From NCBI GenBank assembly GCA_017303635.1, contig JAFLCG010000014.1, positions 62,001-126,000 on the forward strand: DNA of 64,000 nt, in the 5' to 3' direction. This document shows, piece after piece, positions 1 to 1,309 of this stretch. The position numbers and the translations under genes are program-made. This DNA is from Anaerolineae bacterium (GTDB lineage: Bacteria; Chloroflexota; Anaerolineae; Aggregatilineales; Phototrophicaceae). Positions within the stretch are counted from its first letter, which is position 1, and every line of letters begins with the position of its first letter. Below the pieces are notes generated by a model that worked only from the letters and a program-made list of their open reading frames with translations, was not told where the DNA came from and ran no database searches.

Positions 1-721
1 TGCCGCCTCCGACTGCACGCGCAGTGCGTAGGCATATATCCGCTAATTCGGGTGTCACCGGGCAGTTTGACGCTTTGCCACCACGGGCTGTATTGGTGAT
101 CCAGTGCGGAGAGTCCCGGTAGATCGCGCAGATGGCTTGGTCGCCAACGACAAAGGCTCGAATGTCCCGGCCCGGTTTACGAATGAGTTCCTGTGTATAG
201 AACAGGTGGAGACTGTAATCCCCAAGCGTTTCCCGGTGTTCAATCACCGCTTCGGCTGCATCACGATCATTGACTCTCGCCAGCATTCTTCCCCAAGAAC
301 CCGTGACTGGCTTGAGGACAGCGGGATAGCCGATCTGTTCAATCGCTCGCAGGGTGCTTTCCGACTCAAAGCTCAGACGAGCACTGGGTTGGGGCACACC
401 CGCTTTGGTTAGCGCAATGGTGGTGCGGAACTTATCCGCACACGTTGAGGCTGTCTGAAAGCTGTTAATGGCGTTCACGCCCCAGTTTTCCAGCATCGCC
501 AGTGTATAGAGACCCCGTGAGGTGCTGACGCTCCGTTCGAGTACTACGTCGTAGTCATGCCAAGCGGTACCCGTGGGGGAGGATTGCTCCGGCCCGGCAG
601 TGATGTCAAAGATGATTTCCCGGTCATTGATGATTTCTGGTTCAACACCCTGCGCCTGAAAGGCACTGATGAGCAGTTTTTCTTCCGGACGGATGTGCGA
701 AATGACGATGCCGACTCGCAT
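1..721 (-). CDS. lysX: LysX, ATP-grasp LysW-amino acid ligase (3' end outside the window)
   Basis: LysX ligates the amino group of alpha-aminoadipate to the C-terminal Glu of the carrier protein LysW, opening the carrier-bound part of the AAA lysine pathway in the cytoplasm. The first 240 residues are present and the C-terminus runs off the left edge; the family is about 280-290 aa. Visible are an N-terminal pre-ATP-grasp fold ([14 protein letters not shown]), Lys98 in DKFRT, Lys137 in AVLKPV, GSWGR (141-145), RDIRAF (185-190) and NTARGG (210-215), the RimK/LysX signature. The ATG lies 2 nt after the lysW stop, so the two are co-transcribed. ArgX or a dual LysX/ArgX role cannot be excluded from this fragment, but lysine is favoured by the lysine-rich leader upstream. 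Confidence 0.93.
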
Positions 722-723
722 GA

Positions 724-894
724 CTATTCGCCCCAGTCTTCCTGTACTTCCGGCGCGCGATCGAGTGTCAACGGGTTCAGGCTGATGATCTCCAGTTCAG
801 TGCCACAATCCGGGCAGGGCAACAGCTCGTGCTGCATGGCGTTAGCAGGGATTGTGATGGCGGCTCCGCATTCAGGGCATTCTGGCATGTTCAT
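724..894 (-). CDS. lysW: LysW, amino-acid carrier protein for lysine biosynthesis
   Basis: A 56-aa acidic zinc-ribbon protein. Two CxxC pairs (CPEC at 6-9 and CPDC at 27-30) form the zinc site. The protein ends in EDWGE, the diagnostic LysW tail whose terminal Glu is conjugated to alpha-aminoadipate by LysX and carries the intermediates through LysZ, LysY, LysJ and LysK. The start ATG at 894 is preceded by GTGAGTGAGG, a good ribosome site; a second in-frame ATG is two codons on. lysX follows after 2 nt. The gene is small and easily missed by ORF callers. Transcription would have to read through two terminator hairpins upstream (938-971 and 1093-1115). Confidence 0.95.
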
Positions 895-933: not shown

Positions 934-972
934 AAAACCGCCGCCAGATCTCGTACGAGGTCTGGCGGCGGT
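934..972 (-). terminator. Rho-independent terminator/attenuator 2 directly upstream of lysW
   Basis: On the minus strand, 971-938 forms a GC-rich stem of about 17 pairs (arms CCGCCGCCAGACCTCGT and ACGAGATCTGGCGGCGG, one C-A mismatch), followed at once by TTTTATTTT. It lies 43 nt before the lysW ATG and 27 nt after the stop of lysine-rich leader ORF 2. The 5' arm contains CCAGACC (965-959), the exact complement of GGTCTGG (1008-1002) in the last codons of that leader ORF. The two structures are therefore mutually exclusive, as in amino-acid attenuators. Confidence 0.8.
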
Positions 973-997
973 GACGACCCTTTGGGACAGGGCGCAG

Positions 998-1066
998 CTA
1001 ACCAGACCGTATGGGCGGCTTCTTGCTCAACTTCCGCTTGGTTTCAACGTATTTGCCGATGACCAT
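998..1066 (-). CDS. Putative lysine-rich leader peptide 2 (22 aa)
   Basis: Short ORF upstream of lysW: ATG at 1066, TAG at 1000-998. It encodes five Lys in 22 residues, with the core KRKLSKK at codons 10-16, and is preceded by GTGGAG at 10-nt spacing, an acceptable ribosome site. Its final codons (CGG TCT GGT) contain GGTCTGG, which can pair with the 5' arm of the terminator at 938-971. A ribosome reaching the stop would cover this segment and let the terminator form. A ribosome stalled at the Lys run would leave it free as antiterminator. The coding call rests on position and composition, not on homology. Confidence 0.6.
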   Translation of the reverse strand: MVIGKYVETKRKLSKKPPIRSG

Positions 1067-1082
1067 GCTGGTTAGGCTCCAC

Positions 1083-1115
1083 TCAAACAAAAAACCCGCC
1101 GTGTCCGGGCGGGTT
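1083..1115 (-). terminator. Rho-independent terminator/attenuator 1 in the lysW leader
   Basis: The minus-strand stem AACCCGCC (1115-1108) with GGCGGGTT (1100-1093) has a 7-nt loop and is followed by TTTTTTGTTTG. It sits 44 nt after the stop of leader ORF 1. Directly after that stop, GTCCGGG (1157-1151) is complementary to CCCGGAC (1109-1103) in the loop and upper stem. A second patch, TTCG (1147-1144), is complementary to CGAA (1117-1114) at the base of the 5' arm. Together they could form a competing antiterminator. It could also simply end metal-transporter transcripts. Confidence 0.8.
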
Positions 1116-1158
1116 CGTTTGCGATCGTTCGTTCATCACAACGCGAAAATCCCGGACG

Positions 1159-1209
1159 TTAGTCGGGTAGCTGCTTCTTCGCCTTCTTGATGAACATTGA
1201 CTGAGTCAT
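1159..1209 (-). CDS. Putative lysine-rich leader peptide 1 (16 aa)
   Basis: ATG at 1209, TAA at 1161-1159, product MTQSMFIKKAKKQLPD. Four of five consecutive residues are Lys (AAG AAG GCG AAG AAG). The stop lies 1 nt before GTCCGGG, the proposed antiterminator strand, so a terminating ribosome would mask it. The Shine-Dalgarno is weak: AAGGGA lies about 14 nt before the first ATG, and an internal ATG at codon 5 is an alternative start. No homology is claimed. The evidence is the Lys run, the spacing and the terminator that follows. Confidence 0.6.
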   Translation of the reverse strand: MTQSMFIKKAKKQLPD

Positions 1210-1309
1210 GATTAACTGCGTCCCTTATTGCAACGTTCTAGAACGATACCGGATAGGCGCAAAAATGCCTATGTGTATTCTGTCTGAATACATCTGTGCA
1301 TAATGATCA
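1210..1309 (-). promoter_or_regulatory. Candidate promoter/operator region of the lysW leader
   Basis: Two palindromes lie between the metal permease stop and leader ORF 1: TGTATTC-N5-GAATACA at 1274-1292 and CGTTCTAGAACG at 1234-1245. A weak sigma70-like pair TTGCGC (16 nt spacer) TAGAAC on the minus strand would start transcription near 1228, with the second palindrome overlapping the -10 region. Read-through from the upstream transporter operon is also possible, as no T-tailed hairpin separates them. The regulator is unknown. Confidence 0.35.

Follow-up and report, generated by a model that had tools for sequence, protein, structure and literature searches.

Why is a lysine operon in Anaerolineae preceded by two short open reading frames (ORFs), with a terminator after each? 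Both ORFs lie on the minus strand of the window (the whole 64,000-nucleotide stretch of DNA that was analysed), in the interval from lysW to a metal ABC transporter permease gene that ends at position 1310. We propose that the operon is governed by two ribosome-mediated (trp/his-type) transcription attenuators placed in series, a reading that we hold with high confidence and under which transcription would respond to lysine.

Parts of the double leader and its operon

Downstream of the leader, lysW and lysX are followed on the same contig by the rest of the operon: lysY (argC-like), lysZ ([LysW]-aminoadipate kinase), lysJ (argD-like), homocitrate synthase, the large and small subunits of homoaconitase, and lysK ([LysW]-lysine hydrolase). 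LysW, LysX, LysZ, homocitrate synthase and LysK passed their NCBIfam cut-offs. Judged by gene content, this is a complete LysW-type (alpha-aminoadipate) lysine operon, and the full set of pathway genes indicates that its product is lysine, which is also the residue that the leaders encode.

The features of the locus are collected in Table 1. An earlier note on this DNA had described two leaders, two terminators and two competing strands on the minus strand, pairing GTCCGGG with CCCGGAC in attenuator 1 and GGTCTGG(T) with (G)CCAGACC in attenuator 2, and every element was recovered where it had been placed. Both competitors are perfectly complementary to their own terminators. The second terminator was missed by a simple terminator scan, yet its fold is strong. 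As the earlier note had cautioned, the competitor of attenuator 1 overlaps little of the terminator stem: apart from the loop, it occupies just two stem bases. This geometry is nevertheless conserved in relatives.

Table 1 Features of the double leader, the head of its operon and related elements; positions refer to the window unless a locus is named.
Feature	Position	Strand	Details
Probable promoter zone of leader transcript	1241..1270	(-)	weak TAGGCA-17-TATCGT; -10 ends 33 nt before leader 1
Leader peptide ORF 1	1159..1209	(-)	MTQSMFIKKAKKQLPD, then stop; Lys cluster conserved in relatives
KKAKK motif of leader 1	1174..1188	(-)	Lys codons AAG AAG GCG AAG AAG
Attenuator 1 region 1 (ACCCGAC)	1162..1168	(-)	pairs with region 2 to give the 1:2 hairpin
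Attenuator 1 region 2 (GTCCGGG), competing strand	1151..1157	(-)	covariation and fold
Attenuator 1 region 3 (CCCGGAC)	1103..1109	(-)	
Attenuator 1 terminator	1092..1116	(-)	GAACCCGCC[CGGACAC]GGCGGGTTT, then TTTGTTTG (T-tail); terminator scan and fold
Leader peptide ORF 2	998..1066	(-)	MVIGKYVETKRKLSKKPPIRSG, then stop; consensus of relatives ...KKQSKKPxxRSG, then stop
Attenuator 2 region 2 (GGTCTGGT)	1001..1008	(-)	overlaps RSG, the final codons of leader 2; covariation
Attenuator 2 region 3 (CCAGACC)	959..965	(-)	
Attenuator 2 terminator	about 936..972	(-)	16-bp stem, GTAC loop, then T-rich tail
lysW, first structural gene	724..894	(-)	NCBIfam TIGR01206 above cut-off
lysX	2..721	(-)	runs past window end
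f45-type elements at operon head	L154:1985-2130, L155:2405-2540, L173:3371-3478		homocitrate synthase identified in L154 and L155; L173 a model hit only

Initiation signals are the softest points of the case. In many relatives, a promoter-like pair precedes leader 1 by roughly 25-40 nt (TTGACA-17-TATCTT in family f8). The candidate in the window is weak, including its -35, which counts against attenuation, as does the poor Shine-Dalgarno of leader 1 (GGA, 11 nt), already a weak point in the earlier note. Shine-Dalgarno matches of the leaders are weak to moderate overall and weak in the window. A TGCACA/TTGCAC motif is found repeatedly ahead of the leader promoter, in the window (about 1300-1285, minus strand) and in many relatives; it may be a site for a transcription factor.

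Conservation and coding constraint

We found lysW in 46 of the 61 genomes searched, the window's own included, and added 80 further named lysW loci; the closest bear the labels Aggregatilineales or Phototrophicales (class Anaerolineae). In the window's family, each of the 25 lysW loci carries at least one short ORF with a KKxKK-type Lys cluster, followed by a terminator. By inspection, two modules stand in series at 20 of these loci and a single module at five; double leaders also occur in families f3 and f8 of the order. A genome-wide search with a model of attenuator 2 also picks up attenuator 1 in the same genome, though weakly (E 0.014), which suggests that the two may have arisen by duplication.

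Could only one attenuator be active in this genome, the other being a decaying duplicate? The single-module loci speak for this, together with the poor ribosome-binding site of leader 1 and the KRKLSKK of leader 2, which has fewer clustered Lys codons than its counterparts in relatives. We nevertheless consider it unlikely: neither module of the window has lost its leader, its terminator or a fully complementary competitor, and most of the family, as well as other families, share the double arrangement.

The consensus leader 1 is short and contains KKAKK. Among KKxKK motifs, Lys is encoded by AAG (181) or AAA (31), and the middle residue may be A, V, S, G, D, C, E or T; synonymous variation combined with a free middle residue is the pattern of coding constraint. 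When short ORFs in 107 distinct lysW upstream regions were screened for the pattern XX.XX, Lys filled it at 54 loci, Arg at 13, and Ile and Ser at one each. This bears on a second alternative, that the Lys-rich leaders arrest the ribosome as polybasic nascent chains, or respond to another state such as polyamines or general translation speed, instead of Lys-tRNA charging. The motif is indeed basic, and Pro directly follows KK in attenuator 2, but the preference for Lys over Arg argues otherwise, the CC of the Pro codon is explicable by region 1 pairing, the residue between the Lys pairs and the peptide tail vary freely, and the operon makes lysine, as codon-specific sensing predicts. We regard this alternative as very unlikely and retain sensing of Lys-tRNA charging.

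In f45, another Anaerolineae family, the same element precedes homocitrate synthase, about 5-6 kb upstream of lysW. Its peptides there are MQSQPFVAKKKSKKQKPD and MSIVLCLSKHNSKKEKPD, each ending in a stop, and the element thus goes with the head of the lysine operon. With strict filters, model R1 detected the element in 8 of 150 class genomes, a lower bound on its prevalence across the class, and many lysW loci at the class level have no recognisable Lys leader directly upstream.

Three observations concern individual loci. Family f8 (L028, L030, L031 and L032) has a longer attenuator 2 leader (...KKAKKTNTRWRRLARQCA, then stop), for which a simple search gave no clear competitor. A distant Anaerolineae genome carries two long Lys leaders with extended competitors before lysW (L167:8256-8570), the first being CGGTCTGGCTGCT/GGCGGCCAGACCG. 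Three records titled Pleurocapsa minor, Planctomycetota and Synergistaceae (L052, L060 and L066) hold lysW closely similar to that of Anaerolineae and are possible mislabelled or misbinned contigs.

Pairing, spacing and the proposed mechanism

Across 93 leader-terminator modules, many of them from related genomes so that counts are not all independent, we sought the best complement to the terminator 5' arm and loop anywhere from the Lys codons to the terminator. It fell at the leader stop, mostly at stop+2 to +5 in attenuator 1 and at about stop-9 to -6 in attenuator 2. Complementarity to the own terminator was 20.1 for attenuator 1, against 14.9 for non-self terminators and a maximum of 16.6 in 10,000 permutations among loci; for attenuator 2 it was 19.95, against a maximum of 19.88 over the same number of permutations.

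Alignment of the 2:3 helix of attenuator 1 showed pairing in 89% of cells, with both sides changing at six of eight pairs and up to six pair types at a single position; slid versions of the helix reached at most 44%. Its covariation score was 0.43 versus 0.18 when shuffled, and none of 500 shuffles scored as high. The 2:3 helix of attenuator 2 paired in 93% of cells, with a covariation score of 0.21 versus 0.13 (0 of 500 shuffles as high); its variable pair is the third base of an Arg/Gly/Ser codon, so synonymous codon choice tracks the terminator loop. Covarying competitor/terminator pairs are GTCCGGG/CCCGGAC (window), GTCTGGG/CCCAGAC, GTATGGGC/GCCCATAC, TGAGTGCGGGC/GCCCGCACTCA and CTGAGACGAG/CTCGTCTCAG. 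Covariation supports a mutually exclusive antiterminator in both attenuators.

We give practically no credence to a third alternative, that the terminators simply close the upstream metal-ABC-transporter operon and the leader ORFs arose by chance, with no regulation: a terminator is to be expected behind a permease gene lying directly upstream on the same strand, but there are two, each preceded in many genera by a conserved Lys ORF and a covarying competitor, promoter-like sites separate the upstream gene from the leader in many relatives, and chance ORFs with an upstream-gene terminator are ruled out by covariation.

Attenuation also accounts for the spacing within the modules. In 50 of 60 attenuator 1 modules, the Lys motif is followed 15-17 nt later by the start of the competitor; given the size of a ribosome footprint, this fits a position just beyond a ribosome stalled on the Lys codons. 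The distance from motif to stop ranges from 3 to 21 nt, and that from stop to competitor compensates (r = -0.85), so that their sum has a standard deviation of 1.9, versus 3.3 and 3.5 for its parts; none of 10,000 permutations was as tight, in a comparison in which the competitor was picked by complementarity alone, so that the spacing was not built in, and in which related genomes are not independent. The earlier note had tied the competitor to the leader stop, where a terminating ribosome would mask it. The competitor does lie near the stop in most modules, but the constant distance is the one from Lys motif to competitor, not from stop to competitor.

Early-stop variants (KKAKKT, then stop) place the competitor at stop+12 to +15, where a ribosome at the stop would barely reach it. 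Masking at the stop therefore cannot switch these variants off, which counts against attenuation, and cannot be the sole OFF mechanism overall; in such variants the switching-off probably falls to the 1:2 hairpin. Region 1, between motif and competitor, pairs with the competitor, and the resulting hairpin of attenuator 1 has an energy of -6.0 versus -3.2 kcal/mol for shuffled sequences. Across the module set, the corresponding hairpin of attenuator 2 has -5.1 versus -2.2 kcal/mol; that of the window itself is weak (-2.0 kcal/mol), a point against attenuation. Row permutation of 1:2 alone gave duplex values of -6.47 versus -5.94 +/- 0.22 for attenuator 1, and attenuator 2 showed no signal; the case for 1:2 therefore comes from the stability of the hairpin and not from covariation. 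A T-rich tract follows the 1:2 hairpin of attenuator 1, and we interpret the combination as resembling a pause hairpin.

We then modelled the stalled ribosome as blocked bases in RNA folds. In nascent RNA that stops short of region 4, a stalled ribosome gave 2:3 pairing a mean probability of 0.94 in attenuator 1 and 0.95 in attenuator 2; with the ribosome at the stop, the values were 0.10 and 0.00, respectively. The antiterminator fold of attenuator 1 in the window includes a TTCG/CGAA patch, as the earlier note had supposed, and an inner hairpin. Once attenuator 2 is full length, the terminator is its favoured fold at equilibrium, even when the ribosome is stalled (P about 0.87). This counts against attenuation and means that the switch of attenuator 2 must be kinetic and depend on trapping. 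The trp/his logic invoked in the earlier note, and its expectation that Lys codons and competing strands would be conserved in relatives, agree with the Lys clusters at all 25 same-family loci, the covarying helices, the nascent-RNA folds and an operon that makes lysine.

Under the proposed mechanism, transcription would start just before leader 1. With plentiful Lys-tRNA, the ribosome would pass the KKxKK codons, and region 2 would either lie under the ribosome at the stop or be sequestered by region 1; with region 2 unavailable, the terminator (3:4) would form and transcription would end. With scarce Lys-tRNA, the ribosome would stall on the Lys codons with its footprint over region 1, and region 2, about 16 nt downstream of the stall, would be exposed and could capture region 3 ahead of the synthesis of region 4, so that RNA polymerase would read on. 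The second leader and terminator would repeat the test, and lysW and the eight genes behind it would be transcribed only once both gates had opened. From this arrangement we infer leader translation, stalling on uncharged tRNA-Lys, antitermination in vivo and a benefit of two gates. The double leader is very probably a real sensor of lysine starvation, through which lysine would regulate the operon. On balance, we favour a Chloroflexota attenuator family in which two homologous attenuators for the same signal would act as an AND gate, so that repression is multiplied and the response to lysine becomes sharper, with the constant distance from stall site to competitor, and not the stop codon, setting the design.

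Comparison with known leaders

Lysine genes are also controlled at the RNA level, in other bacteria, by the lysine riboswitch (L-box, RF00168) and the T-box (RF00230). Neither matched at the locus: covariance-model searches found no lysine riboswitch in the window's genome and no T-box at the locus, and no Rfam family reached its gathering score in the 6 kb scanned in this region, where there were only chance matches below threshold. Three T-box candidates lie on other contigs of this genome (C5:113323-113577, C9:29854-30075 and C4:143588-143830), two of them above the Rfam cut-off.

Tsubouchi and colleagues reportedly described leader-peptide attenuation of the Thermus thermophilus lysine cluster, at a homocitrate synthase leader, in 2005. 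That system, too, reportedly has Lys codons in a leader peptide before a LysW-type lysine operon, and the f45 element likewise precedes homocitrate synthase; unlike it, most members of the present family have two modules in series before lysW, in a different phylum. With enterobacterial trp and his attenuation (Rfam Trp_leader and His_leader), the Anaerolineae leaders share tandem cognate codons, exclusive 1:2, 2:3 and 3:4 helices and an intrinsic terminator, whereas here the signal would be lysine, two complete attenuators stand in series and the competitor in many cases begins beyond the stop of its leader.

A survey of regulatory RNA motifs included only His, Leu, Thr and Trp attenuators from Rfam and suggested a gamma-proteobacterial origin for them (PMC3766115). 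The open literature searched yielded no usable report of lysine attenuators in Chloroflexota, and within it the Anaerolineae family and its double form appear to be uncatalogued. The finding would make classical attenuation the means by which a large and mostly uncultivated class controls its lysine genes. A variable stop combined with a fixed spacing from Lys motif to competitor separates which ribosome position matters, and serial attenuators reading one amino acid would lend themselves naturally to asking whether stacking makes a response sharper or deeper.

The closest layout is that of the Salmonella mgtCBR leader, in which two short ORFs are each tied to an attenuator, mgtM answering ATP and mgtP proline (PMC3641672); this two-signal tandem leader has been called a singular example (PMC3641672). 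The tandem arrangement of ORF and attenuator is shared, but the signals differ there, whereas both attenuators here would read the same amino acid. Attenuation of this kind is already known; what is unusual here is two attenuators for one signal in series, in Anaerolineae.
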